DNA of 64,000 nt from Oricola nitratireducens (lineage in GTDB: Bacteria > Pseudomonadota > Alphaproteobacteria > Rhizobiales > Rhizobiaceae). The notes below the pieces were generated by a model. The model ran no database searches and was not told the origin of the DNA. It worked only from the letters and a program-made list of their open reading frames with translations. Location: positions 62,001 to 126,000 of the forward strand of contig NZ_JACZCS010000048.1 in assembly GCF_014904745.1 (NCBI RefSeq), written 5' to 3'. A program made the translations under genes and the position numbers. Of the stretch, positions 17,342 through 39,812 are shown piece by piece (positions within the stretch are counted from its first letter, which is position 1; each line of letters opens with the position of its first letter).

Positions 17342-17375
17342 GCCGTAACGGCCCCTGGAATGGAGAGGTCTCTAA

Positions 17376-17414
17376 CATTCCGGGAATTCCGGGCCTTGGC
17401 GGGGGCATCATGCC
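17376..17414 (-). promoter_or_regulatory. Bipartite promoter-like element upstream of icpA
   Basis: On the minus strand GGCATGATGCC (17404-17414) is followed after 19 bp by CCCGGAATG (17376-17384), 35 bp before the icpA start. The same two blocks with the same 19 bp spacing occur upstream of both flagellin genes. This may be the promoter and/or regulator site of late flagellar and chemotaxis genes. Confidence 0.55.
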
Positions 17415-17478
17415 GGGCGAAAAAGCCTCCAAGCAGGAACCCACCTAATCCCATTTACCTTAATGAAAATTAAAAATC

Positions 17479-18285
17479 TCAGGGTTCGCCGTTAATATCC
17501 AGAATGCCCTGACGAATGGCGACTATTATGGCGTGGGTACGGTTGACCGCGTTCAGTTTTTTCGTCGCGCTGATGAGGTAATGATTCACCGTATGCGTCG
17601 ACAGCGTAAGGATGATTCCGATCTCCTCGCTCGTCTTGCCCTCGGCACACCATCGCAAACATTCCTTCTCGCGCACGGTTATGCGACTGGCAGCGCCCGC
17701 ATGGCCATCGGGACGCAAGGCGATCTGGTCGAGAATCACCTGTGTCAGACCGTGGCAGAAGAAGAGTTGTTCGGCATTCAGCGGATCCGCACCGGGCATC
17801 GACTGCGTGACGAATAGCAATCTCTCGCTCGCGGATGAGCGCCTGAAAAAGACATGAAACAGCGAGTTCGACATTTCGGCCCAGCTCTCGCCATGCGAAA
17901 GAACGGCGCGTTGCCGAACGACCGGGTCCGCCGAAAAACTCCAGGAAAACGGCGTGGTCACCGATATCGTCTTGCACGTGAAATCCGCCGTCTCGTCGCA
18001 GAGGGTATCCCGAATATATGCGGAGACTTGCGGGTCGAGTGACGACTCGATCGTTTCCACGCGGACCCCGCTATTTGTTAGCAGGCGAAAAATTGCATAT
18101 CGCCGGGACTTGGCTATCGTGCTTATTTCCGCGACGATCGTATCCGGATCGACGTCATTGTCGGCAAGAGTGGCAAGCATGCCTGCCGGAAGGAGTCCAG
18201 GGTGCATATCGGGTAACCCGCGCCTCAGATTCTTGTTATTATTATTGTTCAAGACCTCTCCGGGTCCGCAGGTAACGTCAACCAT
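17479..18285 (-). CDS. LuxR-type transcriptional regulator (VisR-like)
   Basis: The protein has 268 residues from the first ATG. An N-terminal sensor-like domain of about 190 residues is followed by a LuxR helix-turn-helix (ITVREKECLRWCAEGKTSEE, then IGIILTLSTHTVNHYL, KLNAVNRTHAI). The HTH sequence resembles VisR, the rhizobial master regulator of flagellar genes acting with VisN. Only one LuxR gene is present here and no VisN partner is in the window. Start uncertain: ATG at 18285 lacks a good ribosome site; ATG at 18207 (MHPGLLPAG) would remove an Asn5 run made by an AAT-type repeat. It sits upstream of icpA. Confidence 0.75.
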   Translation of the reverse strand: MVDVTCGPGEVLNNNNNKNLRRGLPDMHPGLLPAGMLATLADNDVDPDTIVAEISTIAKSRRYAIFRLLTNSGVRVETIESSLDPQVSAYIRDTLCDETADFTCKTISVTTPFSWSFSADPVVRQRAVLSHGESWAEMSNSLFHVFFRRSSASERLLFVTQSMPGADPLNAEQLFFCHGLTQVILDQIALRPDGHAGAASRITVREKECLRWCAEGKTSEEIGIILTLSTHTVNHYLISATKKLNAVNRTHAIIVAIRQGILDINGEP

Positions 18286-18327
18286 GTTTCTGTAACGGTA
18301 TCGCGTGTAACGGTGTTACAGAAACAT
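18284..18327. promoter_or_regulatory. Perfect 13-bp inverted repeat at start of LuxR gene
   Basis: ATGTTTCTGTAAC (18284-18296) is exactly repeated in inverted orientation as GTTACAGAAACAT (18315-18327), with an 18-bp spacer. Inside and around it are several GTAAC words (18272, 18292, 18307, 18347), including a direct repeat GTAACGGT (18292-18299 and 18307-18314). It overlaps the first possible start codon. It could be an autoregulatory operator or an RNA hairpin masking the start. Confidence 0.55.
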
Positions 18328-18596
18328 AAATGCATTTGCAACAATCGGTAACGTGACGGAAGATCGCGACCTTAGCGGCCGTATCCGCCATTTCTGCCTA
18401 GAAACCTTTTTTCCCCACATTTTCCGTCCTGCCGGGAAAACGCGGGTGAATTTCCGCATCGTCGCGTGAAAAGCTACGCGCAAGCGATGTGCGCCAATAT
18501 GGCAGAGGCATGCGATTCGACCTACCGGCGCGAAAAACGCCCGCACCGCGAATCGCCGGACGAAACCTGTACATTTGACAAGCTGTCATCGCGACC
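18286..18596. other. Divergent intergenic region, LuxR gene / small exported protein
   Basis: The region is 311 bp. Its left edge holds the inverted repeat described above. Further right I see an inverted repeat TGACA-AGC-TGTCA (18576-18588) just before the next start codon. No other gene or RNA recognised. Confidence 0.5.
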
Positions 18597-19019
18597 ATGA
18601 ATCTCATCCAGTACTCGATCGCCGGAACCGCAGCCTGCATTGCAGCGGTCGGAGGCGTCATGCTGCAGGTCACGCTTTCGCAGCCGTCGGCCGAGGCAAC
18701 GGATCCGCACGCCGATGAGGCCAAGGTCGGCGAGGGTGTCAAGCTTCCGCCGATTCCGGTGCCGATCTACTCGCGCACACAAAAGATCGGCTACTGCGTG
18801 ATGCGCGTGGAGTTCGACGGCGCGCATACTGATCCGGAGGAGCGACGCATCGCGGTACCGCGGGTGACCAACGACCTCTATATCGAGTTTTCCGCGACCC
18901 TGGAGAAGAATGCCGACGGGCCGGCGGAATGCGCCAGCCGGGTGGGCAAGCGCACCGACAAGTTCGTGATCTACGAAGCGGAATTCTACGAGAAGATCAT
19001 GCCGGGACAGACGCCGTGA
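18597..19019 (+). CDS. Small membrane-anchored protein of unknown function
   Basis: The protein has 140 residues. An N-terminal hydrophobic segment (IAGTAACIAAVGGVMLQVTL, about 8-27) anchors or exports it; the rest is predicted periplasmic. The segment IPVPIYSRTQKIGYCVMRVE resembles a segment of the convergent protein ending at 19032 (FAIPYVNETGIVGYVTGRF), so the two may be distant homologues. It is at the end of the flagellar block. No clear Shine-Dalgarno site precedes the ATG. No family recognised. Confidence 0.65.
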   Translation: MNLIQYSIAGTAACIAAVGGVMLQVTLSQPSAEATDPHADEAKVGEGVKLPPIPVPIYSRTQKIGYCVMRVEFDGAHTDPEERRIAVPRVTNDLYIEFSATLEKNADGPAECASRVGKRTDKFVIYEAEFYEKIMPGQTP

Positions 19020-19031
19020 TCGCGTAACAGT

Positions 19032-19532
19032 TCAGTTTTCCGTCGACGTTTCCGACGTCGATTCGAAACGCGCGTCGCCGGGCATGCGGACCGAATCTTT
19101 CGGGAAAAAATCCAACTGCTCTATCAGCACTTCGGCGATCACCTCGCGTCCGGCCGTCTTGTTGGCTACATCACGCAGTTCGTCGAGCGACTGGCGAAGC
19201 CGCGTCCAGCCGACCGGCGTGGCAAGCGCGCCGGCTTCCGCATAGAAGTGGCTGCTCAACGCATCGAAGATCAGCGTCTGAAGCGGGATCATCAACCCGG
19301 CCTCCTCCGACGCCACCGTCTTGACGGTGAAACGGCCGGTCACATAGCCGACGATACCGGTCTCGTTGACATAGGGAATCGCGAAGAGATCGGTCCTGAA
19401 GTCGTTGAAGCCGACATGAGCTTCGTGTGCGGGCGCGCTGTCCTCCGGCGTCTCGGAATATTGCTGCCCGAAATAGATACCCGTGAGGGTGGCGCCTGCG
19501 ACCAAGAGCGCGAACAGGATTTGGCCGATCAT
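19032..19532 (-). CDS. Small membrane-anchored protein, FliL-like layout (unknown)
   Basis: The protein has 166 residues with one N-terminal membrane helix (about 3-22), then an apparent beta strand (IVGYVTGRFTVKTV), a helix and a closing segment (TRLRQSLDELRDVANKTAGR). This topology recalls FliL-type flagellar proteins, but the similarity is weak. It is the last gene of the minus-strand operon flhA-fliR-fliJ-flgJ-flgN and overlaps its upstream neighbour by 4 bp, so a flagellar role is likely. Convergent with the 18597 gene. Confidence 0.65.
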   Translation of the reverse strand: MIGQILFALLVAGATLTGIYFGQQYSETPEDSAPAHEAHVGFNDFRTDLFAIPYVNETGIVGYVTGRFTVKTVASEEAGLMIPLQTLIFDALSSHFYAEAGALATPVGWTRLRQSLDELRDVANKTAGREVIAEVLIEQLDFFPKDSVRMPGDARFESTSETSTEN

Positions 19533-19924
19533 CCGTAACCTGCAGGTAGTCTCGACATCGACGGATAGGTACCGTCGGATTCGGCGTGTGTGATCGCGTC
19601 TCCGAGAATACTGATGACATCCTTTGTCGCGGCCATGTTGGCCCGAAGCGCGGCGGCGTTGTCATCGACCTTCTTGCGCAGGGCGCGCAGTTCCGCCCTG
19701 ATTTCCTCGTCGACTTCGAAGCGGGATAATTCGCGCGAAACGAGATTGAGTTCATAGAGGCAGCGATTCTTGCGCGCGTTCGAACCCGAAAGCCCGGCTG
19801 CGGGATTCGTTCGCAACAGCCTGGTTTCCTCCTCGATCGCGTCGCCAACGCGCAGAAAAAGAAACTTGAGCTGCTTCTTGCTCAGGGCACTCTGGCGCGT
19901 TGCCGGTGCTGCTGCAGGTTTCAT
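19529..19924 (-). CDS. FlgN-like flagellar export chaperone (candidate)
   Basis: The protein has 131 residues, all-helical in appearance. Features match FlgN: EEETRLLR near the start, a central helix NRCLYELNLVSREL, a late helix DDNAAALRANMAATKDVISI, and the ending AESDGTYP. FlgN binds FlgK and FlgL before export. The gene is in an operon with flhA, fliR and FlgJ-like, and overlaps the next gene by 4 bp. Assignment rests on length, pattern and context. Confidence 0.6.
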   Translation of the reverse strand: MKPAAAPATRQSALSKKQLKFLFLRVGDAIEEETRLLRTNPAAGLSGSNARKNRCLYELNLVSRELSRFEVDEEIRAELRALRKKVDDNAAALRANMAATKDVISILGDAITHAESDGTYPSMSRLPAGYG

Positions 19925-19958
19925 GCCCGCTTACTCCCTGTTTTGATCATGGACTCGG

Positions 19959-20501
19959 TCAACTGTTGTCGCCGGAACCGACGGCCGACATCATCTTGCG
20001 GATGAAATCGCGACTGATCTCGTTGGTGCCGCTGCGCGCGGCATCGATGGCGCGGGTTTCGGAAGGCGTAGCCTCCGCATCGTTGATCCCATGCAACGCC
20101 TGGACGTTTTCGCCGTCCCTGACGAGATATTTGTTGATCTTCGAGGCAACGCCGAAGTCGGTGTTCTTGACCACCTGCGTGGCAATCTGGTCGGCCATCA
20201 TCGATTTCCAGACACTGCCGGAAAATCCCCCGCCAAAATAGCTTTCGTCGCTGTCGCCCATCATGTTCTTGACCATGTTGGCAACGAGCAACGCCTCGAA
20301 TTCCTTCGAAGCCTCTTTCGGATCCTTGCCGTGTGCCACCCGCGACAGGTGGCTTCCCATCGTCGCGGCCTTGGCAATGGTCGATGTGCCATCGCCGCCG
20401 ACAGTACCGGAAGACAGCCGCGCCTGAACGCTTTGCGCCCTGGCGGGATCCGCGGCTCGCGCAACGTCGAGAATGAGATCGGATGGAAATTCGACCGCCA
20501 T
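19959..20501 (-). CDS. FlgJ-like rod-binding protein
   Basis: The protein has 180 residues. The rod-binding domain is visible at about 65-120 (KEFEALLVANMVKNMMGDSD, then YFGGGFSGSVWKSMMADQIA). It lacks the C-terminal muramidase domain of enterobacterial FlgJ, as usual in alphaproteobacteria; the separate lytic transglycosylase at 30200-30799 may supply that activity. It probably caps the growing rod in the periplasm. Confidence 0.82.
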   Translation of the reverse strand: MAVEFPSDLILDVARAADPARAQSVQARLSSGTVGGDGTSTIAKAATMGSHLSRVAHGKDPKEASKEFEALLVANMVKNMMGDSDESYFGGGFSGSVWKSMMADQIATQVVKNTDFGVASKINKYLVRDGENVQALHGINDAEATPSETRAIDAARSGTNEISRDFIRKMMSAVGSGDNS

Positions 20502-20537
20502 TAAGTCCTGTTCCAGGTGGTCCTGTTTCGTCCGGTC

Positions 20538-20954
20538 CTAGCTTATCTTGCCAATCTTGCTTGAAGCTGACAGTTGGCGCGCCAAACGCTGATCGAGCGT
20601 TTCAGCCTGCGCGACCGCCTCGTCGCGACGCGTCTCGGACGTACGCTGCTCGCCGTAGCGATTTTCGATCGTTTCCAGCTTCTTCTTCTCCTTGAGAAGT
20701 TCGTCGCCGGACGCCTTGACCTGCCGTTCGGCATCCGCCTTCTCCGACAGGGTCGTCTGGAAATAGCTGGCGAGCAAATCCGGAAACAGACCGACGATGG
20801 GCCCGCCTTCGTCAAACATCCGGTTCAGCTCCTCCAGGGAGCGTTCGGCCGTCGCCGTCCGGTTCTTCGCTTCGGCAAGGTCGCGTTCGCGCATGGCCTT
20901 GATCACGCGCTGGAGGCGCAGAAGACGGGCATAATCGGTCGGTTGGCCGCTCAT
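20538..20954 (-). CDS. FliJ-like coiled-coil protein (candidate)
   Basis: The protein has 138 residues, almost entirely charged coiled coil (RLLRLQRVIKAMRERDLAEA, then ADAERQVKASGDELLKEKKK). Length and helical pattern fit FliJ, the export-ATPase stalk protein. The gene follows fliR by one base. Sequence identity to FliJ is too low to be sure by eye. Confidence 0.6.
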   Translation of the reverse strand: MSGQPTDYARLLRLQRVIKAMRERDLAEAKNRTATAERSLEELNRMFDEGGPIVGLFPDLLASYFQTTLSEKADAERQVKASGDELLKEKKKLETIENRYGEQRTSETRRDEAVAQAETLDQRLARQLSASSKIGKIS

Positions 20955-20955
20955 G

Positions 20956-21711
20956 TCACTGCAGGGTGTAAACGGCGGCGAACCCGGCGCCGAACAGGCT
21001 CAGCATGTAGGGTACCGAGAAGTACATGATGAGCAGACCGATCACGAGGATGAAAGGCAGCGAGATGAAATAGATCGGTATCTGGACCGCGAGCTTGTTG
21101 AGCAGGCCGACACCCAGATTGACGATGATCGCGAATCCCAGGAACGGGCTGCCGAGGCGCAATGCCACCAGAAAGCTCTCGCGCAAGACATCGACCAGAT
21201 CGACGAGGAGCAGGCGCGGCGACGGGAATTGGTCGAGCGGCATGACGTCGTAGGAACCGAGCAGTGTTGTGATGACCAGATGATGGAAATCCAGCGTGAA
21301 AAGGATCATCAGGGCGGCAAAGGACAGGAAGACGGTCAATTGCGACTGCATCTCGAAGCCCTCGATACTGGCGCCGAGCATGCCGCCATAGCCGATCGCC
21401 ATGCCGACGCCGGTAATGATGAATTCTAGCGCGAGCAGATAGAAACGGGCGACCAGGCCGAAAAAGCTACCAATGATCGTTTCGCTGACGACCAGCCGCA
21501 AAATCAGGATGCCGGACGGATCGGCGAGTTCGGCCTCCATCTTCGGCGCGACGAAGGTCGACACGGCGACCGCCACGGCGAGCGAGGCAAACAAGCGGAT
21601 CTGTGGCGAGACGCGCGCACTCGACATGCCCGGCAGAACCATGAAGCAGGCGCCAACGCGGCAAAAAACCAGGAAAGCGGTCAGTATGTCGGCGGGCAAC
21701 GCCGTGATCAC
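20956..21711 (-). CDS. fliR: Flagellar export apparatus protein FliR
   Basis: The protein has 251 residues with several hydrophobic helices. It starts [20 protein letters not shown], contains [20 protein letters not shown] and the family stretch [17 protein letters not shown] near the end. It forms the core of the type III export gate. It overlaps flhA by 4 bp. Confidence 0.94.
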
Positions 21712-23792
21712 GACACCGTTCCGAGAATGCGGATTTCGATACCCTTGCCGATCTCCAGATGCGACAGCACCGGCGTATCGGGATGCAGGCGCTCGACGAT
21801 CATGCGCACATAGGGCCGCGCCTCCGGCGAGGTGATGATCGCAAAGCGCCGGTTCTGCTTCTTGAACCCCTCGATCGCCTTGTTGACGTCGGCGCCAAAC
21901 TCCTCGAGCAGGCGCGGATCGATGTCGAACTGGTGAACGTCGCCCTTGGCGTCGCGCTTCAGGCTCTCACGGAAAACGAGATCCCAGCGGTTGCCGAGGC
22001 GCAGGACATGCAGAACGCCATGTTCGGTGATGTCGCCGCACAATTGCTGGGCGATGCGGCCGCGCACATGCTCCACGATGGCTTCGGTCCGCCGCGTCGA
22101 AGGCGCAATCTCGGCCACCGCCTCGATGATAAGCGGCAGATTGCGGATCGACACGCGCTCGGCGAGCAACAGTTTCAAAACCGCCTGCAGGCCCGGATAG
22201 GAGCTGTGCGTGGTGCAGATTTCCTCGGTGAGTTTCCGGTATTCCGGATCGAGACGCTCGATGATCGCCTTCATCGTCTTGTAGGAGAAAAGCTGGGGCA
22301 GATTGTTGCGGATCACCTCGCTCATATGGGTGAGCACGACCGCGACATTGTCGGCCGTCGCGATGCGCGCGGTCTTCATGTCGTCGGCAAAGGTTTCGGG
22401 AACCGACAGCGCGTCGATGCCGTATGCCGGTTCGCGCACCTTTTCGAAGGGAATGCCCTTCATCTTTTCGGGCTCGGCGAAAACCATGAGTTCGCCGATA
22501 CGTAAGGAATGTTCCGCGACCACGGTGCCGTGAACCTTGATCTGATAGGCCTTCGGCTCGATGGCGAAATCGTCGGTGATCTGGATTTCCGGCACGATGA
22601 AGCCGTAATCGACGGCAAAGCGCTTGCGCATCTTCTTCATGCGGAAGGCCATTTCCTGGCGGTTCGGCACAAGTTTCGCGGCCAGTTGTTTGCCGAGAAC
22701 GAGTTCGAGGTCGTTGGAGCGCAGCGATTCCTTAACCGAATCGCGTTCCTCGTCCGCCTGCTTGGCGCGGGCGTCGTCGGCTTCCTGTTTTTCTTCCGCG
22801 ACACGGCGCGCAGCGGCCAGCGGGCGCATATAGCCGATCCCCGCCAATACGCCGGAAAGAGCAACGAAGGGGATGAAAGGCAATCCGGGCATCAGGCCCA
22901 GCGCGGCGAGCATGGCGGCGGCGACGAACAAGGCACGCGGATATTTGCCGAGCTGATCGAGAACGGCCTTGTCGGTCGATCCGACTGTCCCGCCCTTGGA
23001 CACCAGCAGGCCGGCCGCCAGCGAAACGATCAGGGCCGGAATCTGCGAAACGAGGCCGTCGCCGACGGAAAGTTTGGTGAAGACGTCGACGGCCTCGGAA
23101 ATCGACATGCCGTGACGCGTGTAGCCGATGATGATGCCGCCGACGATGTTGATCGCGGTGATGATCAGACCGGCGATTGCATCGCCGCGCACGAATTTCG
23201 AGGCACCGTCCATCGAACCGTAAAACGAGCTCTCCTGCTCCAGTTCCTTGCGCCGGGAACGCGCCTCCTCTTCGTCGATGATGCCGGCAGACAGATCCGC
23301 GTCGATCGACATCTGCTTACCGGGAATGGCGTCGAGGGTGAACCGCGCGCCGACTTCGGCAATACGGGTCGAACCCTTGGTGATGACGAGGAAGTTGATA
23401 ACGACGAGAATGAAGAAGACGACGAGGCCGATGACGAAGTCACCGCCCATGACGAAGCGCGAGAAGCCGCCGATGACGTGTCCGGCGGCCTCGGTTCCAT
23501 GCTGGCCTTCCGACAGGATCGTGCGGGTGGTGGCGATATTGAGCGACAGGCGCAACATTGTCGCGATCAGCAGAATCGTCGGGAAGGACGAGAAGTCGAG
23601 CGGTTTATGGATCCAGAGCGCCACCATGAGGATCAGCACGGATAATGCGAGCGAGAGCGCTAACCCGAAATCGATCAGGAATGCCGGAACCGGAAGGAAC
23701 AGGATCGTGAGCATCACGACGATGCCAACGGCAAAACCGATGTCGCGGCTGTTGGCTATTTCCGGCTTGTTGGCAACGTCAAGGATGGCCAA
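21708..23792 (-). CDS. flhA: Flagellar export protein FlhA
   Basis: The protein has 694 residues. The N-terminal half has about eight membrane helices and the FHIPEP-family signature ([37 protein letters not shown]). The C-terminal cytoplasmic domain (from about residue 350) docks export chaperones and FliI. Its start lies 102 bp from fliQ, and fliR follows with a 4-bp overlap. Confidence 0.97.
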
Positions 23793-23894
23793 GGGAACGA
23801 ACCTGACTTGGGATGAATTCGCGCGTCATCATTTCGCGATAGCATCCGTTCCTTGCGCCAAGCTTTGGGCGCAGGCTCCAACGGCAAAAAAGGT

Positions 23895-24161
23895 TCAGAA
23901 ACCGGTGACGATCCGGCTGAAGATCACGTCGGTCAACCGGCCGATCTGCGCGCCCATGAACGGGGCGGAAACAGAGACGGTCAGAAGGATCGCAACGATC
24001 TTGGGAACAAAGGTCAGGGTGATTTCCTGGACCTGTGTCAGGGCCTGGACGAGAGCGATGGTGACGCCGACGATCATCGCGATCAGCACGGCGGGCGCCG
24101 ATGTCATCAGCACCGTCCAGATGGCATACTGGACAATGTCGAGGGCATCGGCTTCGGTCAT
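23895..24161 (-). CDS. fliQ: Flagellar export apparatus protein FliQ
   Basis: The protein has 88 residues and two membrane helices (WTVLMTSAPAVLIAMIVGVT and a second around IVAILLTVSVSA) with the family stretch QALTQVQEITLTFVPK. Part of the export gate. Shares one base with the flgD stop. Confidence 0.95.
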   Translation of the reverse strand: MTEADALDIVQYAIWTVLMTSAPAVLIAMIVGVTIALVQALTQVQEITLTFVPKIVAILLTVSVSAPFMGAQIGRLTDVIFSRIVTGF

Positions 24162-24553: not shown

Positions 24554-24558
24554 CGCAT

Positions 24559-25011
24559 TTACCCCACTGCTGCTTCCTTGACGGGTCCGTGTTCCTGCAA
24601 CGTCCTTGCCGTCGCGGGATTCTGGCGGAGAATCTCCGCCTCGACCGGATAGAGGCCACGGATCGTCTTGAGCGCCTCATAGTATTTTTCCTCGATCACA
24701 AGCCGGTCGACATGCTTGAGTTCGGACAGGATCTTCTGGTTGGAGAAGGCCGTGATCAGAGCCGGCAGGCTCTCGCGGAAGAGCGGCATCGCCGCTTCCT
24801 TGTCACCTGGCGACATGACCATCACCTGGACGATGAAATAGAGCTGGCGCAAGGGCGTGGTCGCGTCCTCGGCCTGCAGGACGTGGTTTTCCAGCAGGAA
24901 CTGCACGTCATTGAGAAGTTCCAGCGACACCTTGCGATCGACACGGATCACAGCGCCGTTGATGAATATTCTCTCGTTGGCTTTCAGGAAAATCTTGAAA
25001 GAGCTTTTCAT
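24559..25011 (-). CDS. flbT: Flagellin synthesis post-transcriptional regulator FlbT
   Basis: The protein has 150 residues and matches FlbT (LKANERIFINGAVIRVDRK, EDATTPLRQLYFIVQVMVMS). In Caulobacter FlbT acts on the 5' untranslated region of flagellin mRNA. The flagellin leaders in this window contain a conserved hairpin at the start codon (38316-38351 and 39737-39774), a possible target. It overlaps flaF by 4 bp. Confidence 0.95.
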   Translation of the reverse strand: MKSSFKIFLKANERIFINGAVIRVDRKVSLELLNDVQFLLENHVLQAEDATTPLRQLYFIVQVMVMSPGDKEAAMPLFRESLPALITAFSNQKILSELKHVDRLVIEEKYYEALKTIRGLYPVEAEILRQNPATARTLQEHGPVKEAAVG

Positions 25012-25355
25012 TCCACCCCGCCCCGAATGATTTTAGTGATGTCAAGCAGACCATCGATATTGTCGGAGTCCCCCTTGCGGATCGCATCGGCTTCGCGAAG
25101 GATCCAGATTCCGATCGATATCAGGCTAGCGCGCAATTCCTTCGGCAATGCGTTGTCATTGCTCGCAAGGTCCTCGAGCAGCATCGTCCAGAGCCGAATC
25201 GTGAAGTGAATCGCTTCGATACGCACAAAGGAGTTCGGCCCCTCCTGCAACGCCTTGGTCAGGAGTTCGATCGACTGATCAAAGAGTTCTCGCTCCCGTT
25301 CGCGGGCATCCGCGGGGGAGTCTTCTTCGATCTCTGCGTAACGCAACATAATCAT
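25008..25355 (-). CDS. flaF: Flagellar biosynthesis regulator FlaF
   Basis: The protein has 115 residues with the FlaF core (RERELFDQSIELLTKA, then FTIRLWTMLLEDLA, LPKELRASLISIGIWIL). FlaF works with FlbT in flagellin production and assembly. Located between flgL and flbT as in S. meliloti. Confidence 0.94.
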   Translation of the reverse strand: MIMLRYAEIEEDSPADARERERELFDQSIELLTKALQEGPNSFVRIEAIHFTIRLWTMLLEDLASNDNALPKELRASLISIGIWILREADAIRKGDSDNIDGLLDITKIIRGGVE

Positions 25356-25387
25356 TTCTTACAACCCATCGGTAACCAAGCCCTAAA

Positions 25388-26428: not shown

Positions 26429-26431
26429 CCG

Positions 26432-27901: not shown

Positions 27902-27978
27902 GCCGTCCGATACAGCCGGTTGCCCGGCAACCGCCGGGTCCGGGTTGGTCTATGCGCGAAGAGCTTGGTCATTCGACA

Positions 27979-29235: not shown

Positions 29236-29259
29236 GAGGAAATCCCTCCTGTTGCGATA

Positions 29260-30024
29260 TCAGCCTACGGTAGCCTCCAAATCTTGTCCGAACCTGCCCC
29301 CGGTTGCGCGCGCGCCGGCGTCCTTCGCGGTCGTCTCGGCACGGGCTGTCTCGACCTTCGCCTCGAGCCGGTAGCCGAGGAAACGCTTGGAATCGATGAT
29401 TTCGTAACCGAGCACCTTGCGCAGCTTCTTGCGCAATTTGGAGATGTGGCTCTCGATCACGCATTCCTCGACGTCCTGCTCGAAGAGCCCGTAAACGGCG
29501 TTGTAGATCTGGCTACGCGTTGCGCGGCGGTCACCGTTGGATGCCAAATATTCCAGGATACGGCGTTCGCGGCGCGGAAGCGGAAAACTGTTTCCGTCGA
29601 TTTCGGGATCGCGTCCGTCGGTGAAGACACGCAACCGGTCGAGTTCGAATACGGAACGGCTCGTATCGCGCCGGCGCTTGATCGCCGTGACCCGCGCCAG
29701 GATTTCGCGGACGTGAACCGGCTTGCGGACAACATCGTCGGCGCCCACTTCGAACTGACGCAGTATTTCCGGTAGCGAATTCTGCTCCAGGACGGAAATC
29801 ACCGGTAGTTTCGTCACCTGGCGAATCTGGTTCACCGGGCAGGATTCACCTTCGGTCTGCCCGACAAGAAAAGCTTCTATAGATTCCATCTCATTAGTGC
29901 AGATTGAATCAAGCCAATTCGGAAGTTCTTTTCCCGATACTCCAAATACAGGGTAACCAATACGCTGGAACATGCCGCTGAAACCTTGCTGAACAAGGTC
30001 GCGGTCATCAATAACAACTATCAT
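29260..30024 (-). CDS. rem: Flagellar regulator Rem (atypical OmpR-type response regulator)
   Basis: The protein has 254 residues. The N-terminal receiver-like domain keeps the acidic pair near the start (VIDDRD), but the strand that should carry the phospho-acceptor reads EAFLVGQTEGE with no aspartate. The C-terminal winged helix (about 125-220, RRERRILEYLASNGDRRATR and ESHISKLRKKLRKVLGYEII) is OmpR-like. The position next to flgE and the lytic transglycosylase matches Rem of S. meliloti, which activates mid-class flagellar genes in exponential growth. A GTTAAC word overlaps its start and recurs at 30118-30126, possibly for autoregulation. Confidence 0.88.
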   Translation of the reverse strand: MIVVIDDRDLVQQGFSGMFQRIGYPVFGVSGKELPNWLDSICTNEMESIEAFLVGQTEGESCPVNQIRQVTKLPVISVLEQNSLPEILRQFEVGADDVVRKPVHVREILARVTAIKRRRDTSRSVFELDRLRVFTDGRDPEIDGNSFPLPRRERRILEYLASNGDRRATRSQIYNAVYGLFEQDVEECVIESHISKLRKKLRKVLGYEIIDSKRFLGYRLEAKVETARAETTAKDAGARATGGRFGQDLEATVG

Positions 30025-30199
30025 TTGTTAACCCCCGCCCGAATCACTTCATTGTTCGGCACCTCCGGCTTAACGAAAGGGCGAATCTGTCCACAATCGC
30101 AATAAGTCACATATTGCTTTGTTAACTAAATTGTGAGGCAAGGCGAATCATCTGAAAGCGGGCGCTCGCAACCGAGAAAACCGCTACACTCGAAAACAA

Positions 30200-32186: not shown

Positions 32187-33418
32187 TGGATACCCTCCAG
32201 CAACTTGTCGACGCCCTGCAGCGCCTCGCGGGTGCCGCCGACAAAATCTTCGAAATCGTTCAAAACGGGCTCTGTCTGCTGCTTTGGCGCATCGTGGAAA
32301 ATGCTTTCGCGCCTGCCATTGGCCGGCGTTGCCATCCCGGCGGGAACCGTGGCTTTCGGATCGGTGACCGCATTGGCGACGGCGAGAACGGCACGCAGGA
32401 GTTCGCGATCGCCTTCGGCAAGCGGTTTGGTATCGATATTCCGCAACTGGTTGGCGACCTCGCGAACGTTTTCCGAGGTGATTTGGGATATCTGAGTATA
32501 GAATCGTTGGCGGGCATCGATTTCGGGATCGACCGCTTGTGATTCGTCCGTGTTCTCGCTGTCTTGCGCCGGCGTCAACTCGGCGACGCGCCTGACCAGT
32601 TCGGACTTGCCTTCCACTGTCGCCGTTCGCATCAGGCGCACGGTCACCGCGCTGCGATAGGGTTCCGGCATGAACTCTATGACCTCCATGACGCTCGCCA
32701 TGTCCATCCATTCGCCCAGCGCGATGACGCCGGCAATGAACTCCTGCGCGAATTGCATGGCGTAGGGCGAGGCAACGAAGCGACGCGCGTAGCGGCTGGA
32801 TACGCGCAGGAAGGACACCGGATCCTGACGGCGCCTGTGGATGGTCATCAGGCGACGCAGCGCAGCCTCTTCGATCAGCGTTCCGGGCGCGAGGAGCCGT
32901 GCGGTGTCGAAATCGGCGCGCGCCTTGTCGTCGTCCCGCGTTACCAGGCCGCGGACCAGTGCAAGCGAAGCGCCGAACAGCCCGCCCGCTCTCAACGGAT
33001 CGGCGTTCTTCAGCCGCGATTCCGCAACCCGGGCGCCGCCTTTCTGGTACATGAGAATCGCCACAGCGAGTCGAACGAACTCGTCTTCCTTGTGGCCGAG
33101 ATCCGTCAGATGCGCTTCCAGCGTCGCCGGATTTCCGCCGAGCATCGCGTAGGAGATCAGCGCCCTGGCGTTTTTCGGGTCGGTAAATTCGGAACGGTCG
33201 AGCTTGGCGAAACTTTCGTCAATCAGCCTGGTGAGCTCGCGCTGCATTCCAAGCGCCGACTTGTCACCGTCGGCGATCTCGTCCTGCACGCGCTGCAGCG
33301 AACGCACGAGCTTGTACGGCTCGGTGTCAAGTCCGCTCGCGTGCACGCCGGACGCAAGCAGAAGCAACGGACTGCACACCGCCGAGGTCACCAGGATTGG
33401 CCGCAACGCGCTCATCAC
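32183..33418 (-). CDS. motC: Periplasmic motility protein MotC
   Basis: The protein has 411 residues. A signal peptide at about 1-28 (MSALRPILVTSAVCSPLLLL, then ASGVHASG) is followed by a helical-repeat periplasmic domain. In S. meliloti MotC binds the periplasmic part of MotB and needs the chaperone MotE for folding. Overlaps motB and motD by 4 bp each. Confidence 0.92.
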   Translation of the reverse strand: MMSALRPILVTSAVCSPLLLLASGVHASGLDTEPYKLVRSLQRVQDEIADGDKSALGMQRELTRLIDESFAKLDRSEFTDPKNARALISYAMLGGNPATLEAHLTDLGHKEDEFVRLAVAILMYQKGGARVAESRLKNADPLRAGGLFGASLALVRGLVTRDDDKARADFDTARLLAPGTLIEEAALRRLMTIHRRRQDPVSFLRVSSRYARRFVASPYAMQFAQEFIAGVIALGEWMDMASVMEVIEFMPEPYRSAVTVRLMRTATVEGKSELVRRVAELTPAQDSENTDESQAVDPEIDARQRFYTQISQITSENVREVANQLRNIDTKPLAEGDRELLRAVLAVANAVTDPKATVPAGMATPANGRRESIFHDAPKQQTEPVLNDFEDFVGGTREALQGVDKLLEGIQ

Positions 33419-34755
33419 GTGTTTACTCCGACGAGAACCTCGATGCGGCGGTTTTTCGGTGAGAGCGGTTCATCGGGAACCAGCAGTTGGCGGTCGGCGA
33501 AGCCGGAAATCTCGCGCACGCGGGTTTCCTCCATGCCGCCGCGCAACAGCATGTAATAGGCCGACTGGGCACGGGCGGCAGACAGGCGCCAGTTGTCGTA
33601 ATCCTTGGACCGGAACGGGCGTGCGTCCGTGTGACCGCGAATGCGGATCCCGCCCTTCTGCTCGCCAAGCACGTTACCGATCTTTTCCAGCGCGATGACG
33701 AGATCATGCGAAGGAATCGCCGAACCGACCTCGAACATGGAGATGTCGAAGGCGTCTGTCAGGGAAATGAGGATTTCGTCGCCGGACGGGACAACAGTCA
33801 ACTCGCCGGCCAATTTCGACCCCTCGCCGAAGGCTTCGGTGAGTTTCTCGGTGATCTTCTCGCGCATCTGCTCGGCCGCCGCCGCGACGGCCTCGGCCTT
33901 GCGGACTTCAGCTACCGCCTGCTCCAGTTTCGCGGCATCGCTGGTCTTGTCCTGCGCATCCTTGGCGATGGCCGCAGTCTTTGCCGGATCTTCCGCCCCC
34001 GCGACAACCTTCGCGACAGACATGCCTTCCTGACCGGCTTTCATCTCGCCGGTCTTCATCTGGCCCGAATTTTCCTTGCCGCTCGCCTGATCGCCGGCGT
34101 GAGCATTGCCGCTGTCGCTTCCCTTGCCGCCCTTGCCGATCGCGGCGGGGGCCGTCTTGTTCTTGTCGGCGACTTCGCCCTGCCCATCGGTCTCGTAACG
34201 GCCGGCGAGTTGTCCGCTGTTGTTGGAGGGGCGAACCTCTTCGTTCCAGAAATTGGGCGAGAAGGGATCCATGAAGGCTTCGCCGCCCGCCGCGTCGTTG
34301 ATGGCATCGTTGCCGTTGCGGCCGCCCTGCTCCTCGATCGCGCGCAGTTCGCCCGGCGCCTGGTGCGCGGCGATCTCGTTGAGGGCAGAGAACGGATCGG
34401 CGAAATACTGGGATTCGGTCTTGGATTGCTTGTCGGAGGGCGAGCTTATGGGCTTTTCCTCGGGGAACTGCTCGTTCGGCGCCTTGACCTCGGTTTCCTG
34501 CACGCCCTCGGCATCGTGAAGCCCCTTCACGCTGCGGTTCCGGTCGACGAGCTTGACCGGATTGAAGTAGCTGGCGACGGCCTTCTTGGTCTCCTCGTTA
34601 GCCGCGTTGATCAGCCAAAGGACGAGAAACAGCGCCATCATGGCCGTCATGAAGTCGGCAAAGGCGATCTTCCAGGCGCCGCCGTGATGGCCTTCTTCGC
34701 CTTCGCCGCCGCGCTTGATAATGATGATTTCCTGAACCTTGTCGGGACTGTTCAA
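33415..34755 (-). CDS. motB: Flagellar stator protein MotB
   Basis: The protein has 446 residues. One membrane helix (FADFMTAMMALFLVLWLI) carries the proton-binding Asp34. A long Lys/Glu/Ala/Gly linker, much longer than in E. coli and typical for rhizobia, leads to an OmpA-like peptidoglycan-binding domain (GGIRIRGHTDARPFRSKDYD, NRRIEVLVG). Works with MotA (49620) and MotC. Confidence 0.95.
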   Translation of the reverse strand: MNSPDKVQEIIIIKRGGEGEEGHHGGAWKIAFADFMTAMMALFLVLWLINAANEETKKAVASYFNPVKLVDRNRSVKGLHDAEGVQETEVKAPNEQFPEEKPISSPSDKQSKTESQYFADPFSALNEIAAHQAPGELRAIEEQGGRNGNDAINDAAGGEAFMDPFSPNFWNEEVRPSNNSGQLAGRYETDGQGEVADKNKTAPAAIGKGGKGSDSGNAHAGDQASGKENSGQMKTGEMKAGQEGMSVAKVVAGAEDPAKTAAIAKDAQDKTSDAAKLEQAVAEVRKAEAVAAAAEQMREKITEKLTEAFGEGSKLAGELTVVPSGDEILISLTDAFDISMFEVGSAIPSHDLVIALEKIGNVLGEQKGGIRIRGHTDARPFRSKDYDNWRLSAARAQSAYYMLLRGGMEETRVREISGFADRQLLVPDEPLSPKNRRIEVLVGVNT

Positions 34756-35564
34756 GACATGGCCTCCTGAAGCAGTCGGTCGATTTCGGACAGGCGGGTG
34801 GCAAGAACGGATCTCTCGACGCGGGCGACAAGGTCGATATCACTGCCCGGGACGAGCCGCACTTGCGAAGCGTCGCCGGACCATTTGTCCATGAACGCCG
34901 ACAACAGACCTTCAGGCCCGCGCAGTTCGAAACCGACAGCGTCAGTGTCCTCGAGAAGGGCGGCAACTTCCGCGACCAGCGAGTCCAGCGTGTTCGAAAC
35001 GATGTCGGCACGGATACGGCCGGACACAAGCGGCGCAAGGTCCGCGGCGATGGCTGCGACGACATCTTCCTTGATCTTCGGTATCGCCGTAGTGACAAGG
35101 TGATCGAGCGCTTCACGATGGGCTGCCTCGATCCGCTCGATCTCGGCGCGGTGCGCCTCTTCCAGCATTTCATGAGCGGTCGCATCATCCTCCGCGCCCC
35201 CGGATCCCTGATCCAGATCCAGGAGATCGGCCGGCGGCAACGCCGCTTCGGACTCATAGAGGCTATCCAAACCGGGCTCGCCGGCAAAAGGATCGGGCAA
35301 ATCGTCGGCATCCGCCTCGATGTCCGAAAGGTCCAGGTCACTCGTGCCTGTGTCGCCGCCGACATCGGCGAAAGGATCCGCTGGTTCGGCAAACGGATCC
35401 GCGTTCAATCCGGTGAACCCGGCCGGCATATCAAGGGTCGTGAACTCGTCCCGCGAAAGCGCCTCGTGAACCAGTGGCTCGAAGCCTGGCTCACGACTCG
35501 GCGCGGGACGCGGTTGCGCCTCCGAGAAATCCGGCAGCAGGTGCAGGAGAGCAGAGCGGCTCAA
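34752..35564 (-). CDS. FliH-like export ATPase regulator (candidate)
   Basis: The protein has 270 residues. The N-terminal half is acidic and low-complexity (repeated DPFAE/DPFAD). The C-terminal half from about 130 is helical (HEMLEEAHRAEIERIEAAHR) and ends with a small domain in which VRLVPGSDIDLVARVERSVL matches the FliH/HrpE C-terminal pattern. FliH binds FliI and the C-ring. No other fliH is visible in the cluster. It sits one base after fliF and overlaps motB by 4 bp. Inference from pattern and position. Confidence 0.6.
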   Translation of the reverse strand: MSRSALLHLLPDFSEAQPRPAPSREPGFEPLVHEALSRDEFTTLDMPAGFTGLNADPFAEPADPFADVGGDTGTSDLDLSDIEADADDLPDPFAGEPGLDSLYESEAALPPADLLDLDQGSGGAEDDATAHEMLEEAHRAEIERIEAAHREALDHLVTTAIPKIKEDVVAAIAADLAPLVSGRIRADIVSNTLDSLVAEVAALLEDTDAVGFELRGPEGLLSAFMDKWSGDASQVRLVPGSDIDLVARVERSVLATRLSEIDRLLQEAMS

Positions 35565-35565
35565 A

Positions 35566-37230
35566 TCAGGCGGCCTCCTGCCTCACCCAACGACGAAGGA
35601 TCGCCGCGGCGCGCTCCTCGTCGAGATCGACGATCATGGTCAGGCGCTCCTCGGGAGAAGGCCGCATCTTGGCCAGCAACTCGCTCTGGTCGGACGACTG
35701 CGACGACGACGGCAACGGCGGGAGACCCGGAAGGGCGGCGAGCCCCATGTCGTCGCTATCGAAGGCCGCGCCAATCGTCGCGTCCTCAAGCGCCGGCAGT
35801 TCGCCGCCACCGGAGAATGCCTCCTGCTGGGCCGGGGCACCACCTTTCAGGACATTGACAAGCGGGCGCAGGCCGAGGAACACGACGAGCAATATCGCGG
35901 CGATGAATGCAAGGGCATTGATGAACGTGCCGAGGTGTTCGCCAATCATGTCCATCATGCCCGGCTCGGAAAGCGGAACGCCGTCGAAACCGTCCATGAA
36001 ATCGACCGCGGTCACCTGGACGAGATCGCCGCGATCCTTGGATATGCCGGCGGCGGCAACCGCGAGCTGGCGGATCTCGTCAAGCTTGGCGTCGATCTGC
36101 GCCTGGTCGGCGTTGCCGCCCAACGCTTCGACGATGCGTTTCTGATTGACCACGACGGCGATCGACAGCCGGCTGATCGAATAGCCGTTGGTAACGGTCG
36201 CAATTCGTTTGGAATTGATCTCGTAATTCGTGGTTTCCTCGCGGCGCTCGCTGCGATCCGATGATGTCGGGGCCGCCCCGTTGCCCTGCGGCGACTGCGG
36301 CAGGTTCTGCTCGACGGTTGCCGGATCGCCCGATGACTGCTGAGAGGAGGCATCCTCGCTGCGCACGACCTGGACGGACCGCTCCACGCGCGATTCGGGG
36401 TCGTAGATTGTTTCCTCGACCTGTTTCTGGTCGGTGTTGATGTCGGCCTGGACACTGACCCGGAGGTTCATTTCTCCAATATAGGGCGCAAGTGCCTTGT
36501 GGACGCTGTCGGCCACCTCGCTCTCGACAGTCGTCTTGATGCCGAGGTTGCTGGTCGCCGTATTGGTTAGCGGATCGTCGCCGGCCGCGAGAAGCCGGCC
36601 GGTCGAATCCAGGACCGTGACGTTTTCCGTCTGCAGTCCCGGAACGGCGGCGGCAACCAGATGGCGAATCGCCATGGCGCTCGATTCCGCGGTATCTCCT
36701 TCATAACGCACGATGACCGAAGCGGTCGGCGTCTGCTCGGCAAAGCGGAAATTGCCGCGGTCCGCCAGCACGATATGCACGCGCGCGCCCTTGACGCCGC
36801 GAATCGTCTGGATCGACCGTGCGATTTCGCCTTCGAGGGCGCGGACGCGCGTCACCTCCTGCATGAAGGCGGTCAGACCGAGCGAGCCGAGATTGTCGAA
36901 CAGCTCGTAGCCGGTCCCTGAGCCGTTCGGCAGGCCCTTTTCGGCAAGGATCATCCGCGCGCGGCTGGTCTTTCCCGTCGGCACCAGAATCGACGTGCCG
37001 TCAGTATTGACATCGAAAGGGATACCCGCGTCGCCGAGCGCCATGCCCATGCGGGTGATGTCGTCGCGTTCCAGCCCGACGTAAATCGGTTCGAAGGCGG
37101 GGCGATTGAGGTAAAAGGCGGCAAGACCGACGCCGCTGACAACCAAGAGCCCGATCGCGGCAAGTATCGCCAGCTTGCGTGTTCCCAGCGCGGTCAGGTT
37201 GTTCACGATCTGCTGCAACGGCTCAGGCAC
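35566..37230 (-). CDS. fliF: Flagellar MS-ring protein FliF
   Basis: The protein has 554 residues. The first membrane helix is at about 20-38 (LAILAAIGLLVVSGVGLAAF), the second at about 430-450 (FINALAFIAAILLVVFLGLR). Between them are the ring-building domains (ARVHIVLADRGNFRFAEQTP). It builds the MS ring. In S. meliloti fliF follows cheT; here it lies between the flagellins and the FliH-like gene. Confidence 0.95.
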   Translation of the reverse strand: MPEPLQQIVNNLTALGTRKLAILAAIGLLVVSGVGLAAFYLNRPAFEPIYVGLERDDITRMGMALGDAGIPFDVNTDGTSILVPTGKTSRARMILAEKGLPNGSGTGYELFDNLGSLGLTAFMQEVTRVRALEGEIARSIQTIRGVKGARVHIVLADRGNFRFAEQTPTASVIVRYEGDTAESSAMAIRHLVAAAVPGLQTENVTVLDSTGRLLAAGDDPLTNTATSNLGIKTTVESEVADSVHKALAPYIGEMNLRVSVQADINTDQKQVEETIYDPESRVERSVQVVRSEDASSQQSSGDPATVEQNLPQSPQGNGAAPTSSDRSERREETTNYEINSKRIATVTNGYSISRLSIAVVVNQKRIVEALGGNADQAQIDAKLDEIRQLAVAAAGISKDRGDLVQVTAVDFMDGFDGVPLSEPGMMDMIGEHLGTFINALAFIAAILLVVFLGLRPLVNVLKGGAPAQQEAFSGGGELPALEDATIGAAFDSDDMGLAALPGLPPLPSSSQSSDQSELLAKMRPSPEERLTMIVDLDEERAAAILRRWVRQEAA

Positions 37231-37340
37231 TGCGTCGACTCCCTATCCAAGACAGGAAATAGACCGCGAAACTTGTGTGAGAGTGTCTTTACGCCGATCC
37301 GGCTTCACAATCGCCGGACTTGTACAGCCGGAAAAAGATC

Positions 37341-37370
37341 AGGGCAGGCTGCCCGGAGGCAGCCCGCCCT
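37341..37370 (-). terminator. Terminator after flagellin 1
   Basis: A long hairpin (stem AGGGC.GGCTGCC with GGCAGCC.GCCCT, loop CGGA) lies 25 bp after the flagellin stop. Read on the minus strand it is followed by GATCTTTTT. It should end the flagellin message before fliF. Confidence 0.8.
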
Positions 37371-37394
37371 TGAATGGAACCGTCAGTCTGATTT

Positions 37395-38318
37395 CTACTT
37401 GAAGAGTGAAAGGATCGTCTGAGCGTTGGAGTTCGCGATCGAAAGCGCCTGGACACCCAGTTGCTGCTGGACCTGCAAGGCCTGCAATTTGGTCGATTCC
37501 TCACTCATGTCCGCGTCGACAAGCTGACCGATACCTCGATCGACCGCGTCCATCAGATTCGACACGAAGTCGTTCTGCATGTCGATGCGCGATTTCGATG
37601 CACCGAGATTCGAAGCCGACGTCGTCATGCTCTGGAAGGCCGTATCGACGTTGGAGATCATGTCGGCAAGATCCTGATCGTCAATGTTTGCCGCTGTGAT
37701 GTCGAGCGTGGAGACCGAGACGGTTACTCCGCCGGTACCGGTCGTGGTGAAGTCGGTGTCCAGGATACCAGTTCCCGCAGCGTTGGAATCGAACAATGTG
37801 GTCGACGTGATATCGATCGCAATAGTCGACACCGACACGTTTCCGGCACTGTCACGCGAAAACGAAGAGACGATATTCTTCGTCGCCGAGTAGCTGGCAG
37901 AGCCCGAATCGACCGAAAGCCAGTTCTCACCGGAGAACGATGCCGACGACGACATGCTGATAAGCTGGTTCTGCAGTTCGCCGATTTCGGACTGTATCTT
38001 GCTCTTGTCCACGCCCGGCTCGCTGGCGGCGACGAGCTTCGATTTGATTTCGTCGACGACCTTGATGGCGCTGTTCATCGCGGTATAGGCGACATCCACC
38101 TTGCCGGCGCCGAGCCCGAGGGCGTCCTGGACGGTTGAAAGCGCTGAATTGTCCGAACGCATCGTGGTCGCGATCGACCAGTAGGCGGCGTTGTCGGCGG
38201 CTTCCGCGACGGAGTAACCGGTTGAAATACGGCCTTGCGTGACCTCGAGGTTCTTGGTGGTCGCCTGCAGGGATTTCAGTGCGGTCATCGCCGCAGTGTT
38301 GGTCATTATGCTGGACAT
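37395..38318 (-). CDS. Flagellin (copy 1)
   Basis: The protein has 307 residues. Conserved flagellin ends: MSSIMTNTAAMTALKSLQAT at the start and LQVQQQLGVQALSIANSNAQ at the end; the centre is variable and Ser/Thr rich. It is very similar in length and ends to the flagellin at 38816-39739. The start at 38318 is set by alignment with the paralogue; nine extra codons upstream lie in the leader hairpin. Exported and polymerised into the filament. Confidence 0.96.
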   Translation of the reverse strand: MSSIMTNTAAMTALKSLQATTKNLEVTQGRISTGYSVAEAADNAAYWSIATTMRSDNSALSTVQDALGLGAGKVDVAYTAMNSAIKVVDEIKSKLVAASEPGVDKSKIQSEIGELQNQLISMSSSASFSGENWLSVDSGSASYSATKNIVSSFSRDSAGNVSVSTIAIDITSTTLFDSNAAGTGILDTDFTTTGTGGVTVSVSTLDITAANIDDQDLADMISNVDTAFQSMTTSASNLGASKSRIDMQNDFVSNLMDAVDRGIGQLVDADMSEESTKLQALQVQQQLGVQALSIANSNAQTILSLFK

Positions 38319-38389
38319 GGTGTCCCTCTCCAAATCTCGAAACAAGGGACATTCCGGGTTAGCCGGTACAGTGGCTGGGCATCATGCCC
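38316..38389 (-). promoter_or_regulatory. Flagellin 1 promoter-like element and leader hairpin
   Basis: On the minus strand, in order: GGGCATGATGCCC (38377-38389, a perfect 6-1-6 palindrome), 19 bp from its core to CCCGGAATG (38350-38358), then the arms TGTCCCT (38345-38351) and AGGGACA (38321-38327), three bases before the ATG. The ribosome site GGAG lies in the 17-nt loop. The same set is found before flagellin 2. Confidence 0.6.
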
Positions 38390-38390
38390 T

Positions 38391-38762
38391 ATCATGCGAT
38401 ATCCACTGTGCTTGGCCTGCAGCTCGGCCAGTATGTCGTTCCATTCGCGTATTCAATTCGAATGCAACTCGAAGTGCCAAACCCCCGTCGGATGTGCGGG
38501 CAACCGCCAGCCCATGCATGTACGACCCCTTGCTCCCGGCTGTCGGGAACAATCGTGCAGCGACGAACTTTACGGATTGCCAGGCCACACAAACGGCCAC
38601 TCGGCGGAACACGGACTCATAACCAAACGGTAGGCTACGCACCGAAGCTTGCGCGAAACGTTTCGCAGCAAGAAAACTCAAATCACACTTGCCAGAGCCT
38701 CTTGGGCGTCAATGGCGAATAACACATATAGAAATTAACGAAAATGCTTAACAAAATGCAAA
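38391..38762. other. Intergenic spacer between flagellins with LacI-type palindrome
   Basis: No gene seen. A striking inverted repeat lies at 38648-38672: CTTGC, GCGAAACGTTTCGC (a perfect 14-bp palindrome at 38653-38666), one unpaired A, GCAAG. The GAAACGTTTC core has the CG-centred look of LacI-family operators. No LacI gene is in the window. Confidence 0.5.
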
Positions 38763-38790
38763 GAACGGGCCGCCCAAGGACGGCCCGTTC
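38763..38790 (-). terminator. Terminator after flagellin 2
   Basis: Perfect 10-bp stem GAACGGGCCG/CGGCCCGTTC with an 8-nt loop, 25 bp after the flagellin stop. On the minus strand it runs into TTTGCATTTTG. Confidence 0.85.
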
Positions 38791-38815
38791 AAAAATATTG
38801 TCATTTCTGCCGTTA

Positions 38816-39739
38816 TTAACGGAAGAGCGACAAGACAGTCTGCGCGTTCGAGTTCGCGATCGACAGTGCCTGGATACCGAGCTGCTGCTGAACCTGCAGG
38901 GCCTGCAACTTGGTCGATTCCTGACTCATGTCGGCATCGACGAGCTGGCCGACACCCCGGTCGATGGCGTCCATCAGGTTGCCGACGAAGTCGCTCTGCA
39001 TGTCGATGCGCTTCTTGGACGCACCGAGCGACGACGCCGCGTCGGTCATTTCGGTGAGCGCCGCATCCGTCACCTCGATCATGTCATCGAGCTGCGCGTC
39101 CGTGGTCGCGGCACTGATCGTAATATCGCTGGCGCCGCCGGCAATCGAGACCGTCGTGGTGTTGGTGCCGGTGCGGTCCTTCGACAGGATGCCATTGGCC
39201 GGCGTGTCCACGTCCGTCAGCATGGTCGCGGTTGTATCGATGTCGACGGTCGAGATCGAGACCGTACCGGATGAGTCACGCGTAAAGGAGGCGACGACAG
39301 ACTGGGTACCCGGTGCGGTCGCGCCGGTTGCAGTATTGAGGTAGTTTTCGCCGTTGAACGACGCGGATGCAGCAATGCCCACGAGCTGGTTTTGCAGCTC
39401 GGTGATTTCGGACTGGATCTTGTCCTTGTCGACACCCGGTTCCTTTGCGGCGACGAGCTTGGTCTTGATCTCGTCGACAACCTTGATGGCAGAATCCATG
39501 CCGGTGTAGGCGACGTCGAGCGTGGCGGCGCCCATACCGAGGGCATCCTGGACCGTCGACAGCGCCGAGTTGTCCGAGCGCATCGTGGTCGCGATGGACC
39601 AGTAAGCTGCGTTGTCGCTGGCGTCTGCAACGGCGTAGCCGGTGGAGATGCGAGCCTGGGTGGTTTCGAGGGATTTGTTGGTCATGGCGAGCGACTTGAG
39701 CGCCGTCATCGCCGAAGAGTTGGTCATAATACTGGACAT
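38816..39739 (-). CDS. Flagellin (copy 2)
   Basis: The protein has 307 residues, the same length as copy 1. N-terminus MSSIMTNSSAMTALKSLAMT, C-terminus LQVQQQLGIQALSIANSNAQ, variable centre. The two copies are tandem, each with its own promoter-like region and terminator. Probably the two subunits of a complex rhizobial filament; S. meliloti has four such genes. Confidence 0.96.
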   Translation of the reverse strand: MSSIMTNSSAMTALKSLAMTNKSLETTQARISTGYAVADASDNAAYWSIATTMRSDNSALSTVQDALGMGAATLDVAYTGMDSAIKVVDEIKTKLVAAKEPGVDKDKIQSEITELQNQLVGIAASASFNGENYLNTATGATAPGTQSVVASFTRDSSGTVSISTVDIDTTATMLTDVDTPANGILSKDRTGTNTTTVSIAGGASDITISAATTDAQLDDMIEVTDAALTEMTDAASSLGASKKRIDMQSDFVGNLMDAIDRGVGQLVDADMSQESTKLQALQVQQQLGIQALSIANSNAQTVLSLFR

Positions 39740-39812
39740 AGTGTCCCTTTCCCAAAACTAACAAAGGAGGGACATTCCGGGTCAACCGGTACAGAAGCCG
39801 GGCATCATGCCC
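39737..39812 (-). promoter_or_regulatory. Flagellin 2 promoter-like element and leader hairpin
   Basis: On the minus strand GGGCATGATGCCC (39800-39812) lies 19 bp from its core to CCCGGAATG (39773-39781), followed by arms TGTCCCT (39768-39774) and AGGGACA (39742-39748) flanking a 19-nt loop that holds the ribosome site, then ATG. Further upstream, AT-rich DNA contains a CtrA-like half site TTAACCAT (39887-39894). Confidence 0.6.

Follow-up and report, generated by a model that had tools for sequence, protein, structure and literature searches.

Within a 64,000-nucleotide stretch of the Oricola nitratireducens genome (contig NZ_JACZCS010000048.1, positions 62,001 to 126,000; hereafter the window), two flagellin genes, flaB and flaA, and the first gene of the chemotaxis (che) operon, icpA, are preceded by a DNA pattern of two blocks, GGCATGATGCC and CCCGGAATG, which an earlier note on this DNA had taken for a possible promoter or regulator code. 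From comparison of related sequences we conclude that this repeated pattern belongs to a structured RNA leader at the 5′ end of flagellin and chemotaxis mRNAs. In the best explanation, to which we give a probability of about 0.7, these leaders form a new structured family and would restrain flagellin translation until a trans-acting factor acts; the leader probably decides the timing of flagellar filament protein synthesis. Its fold (helices P1 to P4), its spread in Rhizobiales and its placement before flagellins and the first che-operon gene are shown by comparison, and covarying helices, one downstream gene class and a wide phylogenetic range mark it as a structured cis-regulatory RNA leader.

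The bipartite element and the fold of the leader

The three copies lie where they were first placed (17376-17414, 38350-38388 and 39773-39811), each on the minus strand and with its blocks exactly 19 bp apart, and the three-copy pattern appeared in none of 100 shuffles of the window. Throughout the 4.93 Mb genome, the spaced pair at up to two mismatches occurs only at these sites; at up to three, GGCATGATGCC-N19-CCCGGAATG gives the three perfect matches plus one with three mismatches (C20:251955), and a reversed control pattern gives none. Behind the copies come flaB (31 nt from block end to start codon, ATG 38318), flaA (33 nt, ATG 39739) and, opening the che operon, icpA (34 nt, ATG 17341). 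At three mismatches the pattern is unspecific in relatives, with matches in 45 of 61 genomes, against a total of four for the reversed control.

The regions before flagellin genes of relatives carry both blocks too, surrounded by additional inverted repeats. In the flaB leader (38319-38410, minus strand), the minimum free energy (MFE) fold shows five helices. P1 (ACAGTGG 38409-38403 with CCACTGT 38374-38368) is a long-range helix of ~7 bp, its sequence differing between genes, that closes a three-way junction with P2, a variable hairpin, and P3, a near-invariant GGC-AUGAN-GCC hairpin. The first block, whose palindromic nature had been recognised correctly, is hairpin P3 (GGGCATGATGCCC, 38377-38389, from the window scan and the MFE fold). 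Adjoining P1 is P4, a CCGG-loop-CCGG hairpin (CCGG-CTAAC-CCGG, 38354-38366, from the covariation alignments and the fold); it holds most of the second block, which comprises the 3′ strand of P4 and the start of P5. In flagellin mRNAs, P5 (UGUCCC...GGGACA) lies before the ATG and in flaB spans 38321-38351 (TGTCCC 38351-38346, GGGACA 38326-38321) over the Shine-Dalgarno region. Conserved complementarity and folding suggest that P5 would sequester this region near the start codon.

Two covariance models, R1 and R2, recover the leaders. R1 was built from an alignment of 20 leaders described below; R2 covers P1-P4 and was built after an earlier alignment was dropped because the P1 of own-genus icpA leaders was out of register, so that no icpA leader of the genus was in its training set. 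The flaB leader, which belonged to both training sets, scores 79.1 bits with R1 (E value 1.6e-17) and 62.7 bits with R2; the flaA leader (39740-39835, minus strand), absent from both, scores 59.7 bits (E 8.1e-13) and 51.5 bits, and its MFE fold also contains all five helices, P1 being partly mismatched. The che-operon leader (17342-17433, minus strand) scores 28.7 bits with R2 (genome-wide E 0.0012) and 13.6 bits with R1 (E 0.13). It has a P1 (CTTGG/CCAAG), P3 and the P4 sequence, with a GGAATG/CATTCC stem replacing P5; P4 is unformed in its MFE fold because the 3′ part of P4 pairs with the downstream CATTCC. This predicted competition between GGAATG/CATTCC and P4 (17339-17433) may be a switch.

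After icpA, the next R2 match (22.4 bits, E 0.044) lies within an open frame. Thirteen R2 matches were found beyond the three leaders; six of them (L154-L159) were rejected as chance, all being inside open frames, and another of the 13 (C36:17570), which R1 also matches at E 0.014, precedes an open reading frame (ORF) that looks unrelated by eye.

Covariation of the helices and the promoter alternative

From 58 flagellin leaders a helix finder returned no helix for eight and a further 12 were set aside by eye, leaving 38; because the finder picks the best-scoring P1, this selection is no test of P1. Two alignments, of 24 and 20 leaders, were drawn from the 38. Across the 24, GCATGA-G of P3 is invariant. 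The 20, chosen for a common P1 register, were aligned on sequence alone with MAFFT: 95.7% of P1 cells are paired, and six of the seven P1 pairs show two-sided changes (one pair reads CG in 8 leaders, UA in 7, AU in 4 and GC in 1), and RNAalifold, given no structure, returned P1, three P2 pairs, P3 and P4.

Among the 62 loci supplied, R1 found 84 matches at E ≤0.01. Their cells are paired at 85.1% (69.5% when shuffled), with two-sided changes in 28 of 29 pairs, G-U pairs tolerated, and covariation of 0.426 against 0.167 for shuffled and at most 0.111 for slid alignments. A fairer test used loci picked by a DNA pattern with P3, P4 and ATGTCCC, without P1 or P2 (the best 80 of at least 119 stretches): R1 was run on 34 of those 80 and on the Sinorhizobium meliloti che locus, and each of these 35 loci gave at least one match, 62 in total, with 89.9% of cells paired compared to 78.2% and covariation of 0.375 compared to 0.162 when shuffled. 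Both alignments lean towards structure, since they are model-fitted and the matches had to pass the model. We set the 62-match alignment against a null of our own, in which columns were re-evolved on its tree in 300 simulations. For five of seven P1 pairs at most 4 simulations, and for six of eight P2 pairs at most 1, reach the observed value; none does so for the outer P4 pair, and the summed G is 853 against a tree-null maximum of 335. P3 and the inner P4 pairs show little or no variation. Hence covariation in P1 and P2 exceeds shuffles, slides and the tree-based null. Without any alignment, mean pairing of the upstream sequence with its own 3′ arm was 16.65, and the maximum over 5000 permutations was 14.71 (68 distinct arms).

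These results bear on the proposal that the two blocks are a DNA promoter or operator, contacted by Rem, a LuxR-type regulator such as VisR, or an ECF-type or other unknown sigma factor. It has in its favour three identical sites at similar distances from the start codon, genes in the window for a Rem-like OmpR-type and for a LuxR-type protein (both by Pfam), and the lack of FliA (sigma-28): as had been supposed, none of four genome matches exceeds the family cut-off, which equally speaks against membership of the FliA promoter class. The spacing is elastic, however. With a looser pattern applied to named genomes (96 matches in 80 named loci, the best 80 of at least 119 stretches), it ranges from 18 to 33, being 19 in 18 matches, 21 in 37 and 28 in 15, and the loop of P4 varies between 4 and 16. 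The two blocks form halves of RNA helices in a strongly covarying fold, the P1 and P2 arms vary in sequence yet stay paired, and G-U pairs are tolerated. Because the spacing varies and the helices covary, we reject the promoter reading, which we regard as very improbable. In the Rem-like regulator (29260-30024), the receiver domain does not reach the Pfam cut-off.

A separate promoter, upstream of P1, would set transcription. Promoter-like and TTAA-rich blocks, conserved by eye, lie there in relatives; a consensus promoter scan of 38300-40000 gave nothing above shuffles. Passages of PMC4433202 list flaA, flaB and flaC of S. meliloti among the genes that escape the rule of indirect control and are targeted by CtrA directly. 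A promoter upstream of P1 would agree with this; these are the same genes, but that control is transcriptional and would act upstream of the leader. CtrA motifs are also predicted for flaA, flaC and flaD in an excerpt of PMC3616915. In the S. meliloti flagellin D gene, P2 is formed by two TTAACC-type repeats, and our guess is that these act as RNA rather than as a CtrA site.

No Rfam 15 family reached its gathering score in the window, and none lay over the leaders of eight leader loci at E up to 0.5. The flg-Rhizobiales RNA (RF01736), which we take to be a leader of flagellar genes, has no match in the window up to E 10, none in the eight loci carrying the present leader, and none at a cut-off of 55 bits in 31 genomes; its sole weak match (G048) precedes a gene resembling flgF by eye. 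Like the present leader it is a candidate RNA in Rhizobiales (Weinberg 2010, PMC2864571), and the two are distinct elements. We found no published flagellin leader RNA from rhizobia in the open-licence literature. As flg-Rhizobiales differs and no Rfam family matches, the leader appears to be a new family of a known general kind, and potentially a new Rfam family.

Distribution and downstream genes

Of 81 relatives, 52 have an R1 match at E ≤1, and 39 still have one at E ≤1e-3. A flagellin search covered 61 of these genomes; there, 63 of 72 matches at E <1e-3 have a listed Flagellin_N match no more than 140 nt away, and 62 of the 99 strong flagellin matches listed carry a leader at this level. 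Nine matches lie away from flagellins: six have chemoreceptor-like proteins downstream (by blast), one in a genome of the same genus (G002; L120 202-301) precedes a GGDEF-EAL gene (Pfam), one (G030) an ORF resembling a CheY-type response regulator by eye, and the last (G009) has no assigned downstream gene. Leaders of three same-genus genomes (G001, G003, G005), falling below the E 1e-3 level, precede proteins 65-70% identical to the chemoreceptor of the window. A weaker match in G005 (L119) stands before a 168-aa ORF that resembles, by eye only, the N-terminus of the GGDEF-EAL protein of G002. A PilZ-like reading of one locus (L124), made by eye, was dropped, since Pfam finds nothing there.

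Among the looser-pattern matches in named genomes, 91 of 96 have a testable ORF, which is flagellin-like in 88; of the other three, one is chemoreceptor-like by eye and two are probably wrong frames. The named records with a leader are from Agrobacterium, Sinorhizobium, Rhizobium, Mesorhizobium, Bradyrhizobium and Hyphomicrobium. Sampling the order Rhizobiales gave a leader at E ≤1e-3 in 54 of 249 genomes, with downstream genes unchecked. Under stringent filters a class sample gave matches in 2 of 289 genomes: the own genome and one (G283, L287) whose match is by eye a CCGGCATGAAGCCG repeat and was taken as false; no credible match thus lies outside Rhizobiales in that sample. Absences in both samples are soft, because 13-15 candidates per genome were scored.

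The suggestion that the element is a code for late flagellar and chemotaxis genes holds in part: it marks flagellins and the che operon and is specific in the own genome. It is not a general mcp code, since among ~16 own chemoreceptor genes (from 17 matches, of which two share a frame) only one clearly carries it and one more does so weakly, a gene on C49 with 20.2 bits for R1 and 7.7 bits for R2. The C49 structure (L040:5620-5733) is leader-like, with a 7-bp P1 and a differing P4. At the S. meliloti che locus, R1 gives a 52.2-bit match before a gene annotated as a globin-coupled sensor. The icpA position thus holds a HAMP-type chemoreceptor here and, in S. meliloti, a protein annotated as a globin-coupled sensor. 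It is the operon position that the leader stays with, rather than the protein type.

A proposed translation gate and FlbT as a candidate factor

In 55 of 60 leaders tested (of 87), the Shine-Dalgarno region is predicted to be less accessible in the native leader than after shuffling of the sequence before nt -14; nt -13 to -6 are unpaired at 0.24, compared to 0.42, and this fits a translation gate. The leader would hold translation, or set mRNA lifetime, until a trans-factor binds P3/P4 and thereby opens or stabilises it, such that the most abundant late flagellar protein would be made only once its export is possible. The leading candidate for this factor is FlbT, likely with FlaF. Both are encoded on the minus strand of the window, flbT at 24559-25011 (PF07378, E 4e-41), as a candidate trans-acting RNA-binding regulator, and flaF at 25008-25355 (PF07309, E 1.3e-30). 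FlbT is present in all 39 relatives with a leader at E ≤1e-3, and none of the 23 genomes lacking FlbT has a leader at that level. No clear solved structural relative of FlbT was found by sequence (best E 0.71).

The RNA fold and the protein in the CsrA-FliW/hag mRNA system of Bacillus differ from those of the present leader. In that system flagellin synthesis is likewise gated at the mRNA by an RNA-binding protein (cf. PMC6529632). A closer parallel is Caulobacter, where, in excerpts of PMC4347634 (citing Anderson and Gober 2000), FlbT is proposed to bind the flagellin 5′ untranslated region and so to promote mRNA decay: this too is post-transcriptional control through an alphaproteobacterial flagellin leader, and in the window flbT is part of the same flagellar cluster. 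The likeness seen is one of control; the present leader is also on the che operon, and the model has no credible match outside Rhizobiales in the 289-genome class sample under stringent filters. The same excerpts describe Brucella FlbT as an activator with an unresolved mechanism. The conserved, easily mutated leader is a concrete target for FlbT action, and its occurrence in the named genera makes the FlbT question directly testable.

Several observations weigh against the best explanation as a whole or in part. FlbT also occurs in 19 of 42 genomes without a leader, so that co-occurrence partly mirrors the possession of flagella. Leaders stand before chemoreceptor and GGDEF-EAL genes as well, and we know of no report of FlbT controlling such genes. 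Of the 99 strong flagellin matches listed, 37 lack a leader at E <1e-3. Folding z-scores for the flaB, flaA and icpA leaders are modest (-3.26, -1.36 and -0.56, respectively), MFE and centroid folds of the icpA leader contain P1, P3 and the competing stem with no P4, and no P5 pair is significant under the tree null (best 24/300). In the mixed 24-leader alignment, where P1 registers lie one column apart, RNAalifold returned P3 and P4 only. The alignment-free signal is weak per sequence, the true upstream ranking first in 5 of the 68 and within the top tenth in 29; in an earlier, looser version it was favoured in 66 of 95. Finally, that P1 is transcribed is something we infer from sequence.

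Two other RNA readings were weighed. The leader might serve stability, processing or docking of small RNAs under control of Hfq or RNase, with no translation switch. A 5′-terminal stem is a classical mRNA stabiliser. In Agrobacterium tumefaciens, 13 motility and chemotaxis proteins decrease in an hfq mutant, according to passages of PMC4201532. A P5 over the Shine-Dalgarno region and a conserved three-way junction, however, exceed the needs of a stabilising stem, and we consider this reading unlikely. Quite improbable, in our view, is a metabolite-sensing riboswitch tied to motility, e.g. one for cyclic di-GMP: the leader's compact junction, near-invariant P3 loop and match before a GGDEF-EAL gene in one same-genus genome would suit such a sensor, but no Rfam riboswitch matches at the window sites, invariance is located in the hairpins, as in a protein site, and most checked targets are flagellins. 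A broader form of the translation gate is possible though doubtful: the late-motility genes of Rhizobiales, namely the flagellins, the che operon, some chemoreceptor genes and one for a cyclic di-GMP enzyme, could form a post-transcriptional regulon defined by this single RNA element in place of FliA, with one trans-factor or ligand reading P3/P4 to switch filament and chemotaxis synthesis together at hook completion.

The genes downstream of the three leaders are all on the minus strand. Pfam assigns Flagellin_N/C to flaB (37395-38318; run on 37395-38321) and to flaA (38816-39739), and MCPsignal and HAMP to the chemoreceptor, the icpA of the earlier note (15338-17341), which is followed by STAS, CheY-like and CheA genes. 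At an Aminobacter locus (L210), sub-threshold matches to the BjrC68 small RNA (1168-1253, 2447-2521 and 3888-3938) lie between flagellin leaders and are probably terminators. In the window, a strong terminator-like hairpin (38763-38790) separates flaA from the flaB leader, and each flagellin gene therefore probably has its own transcript.

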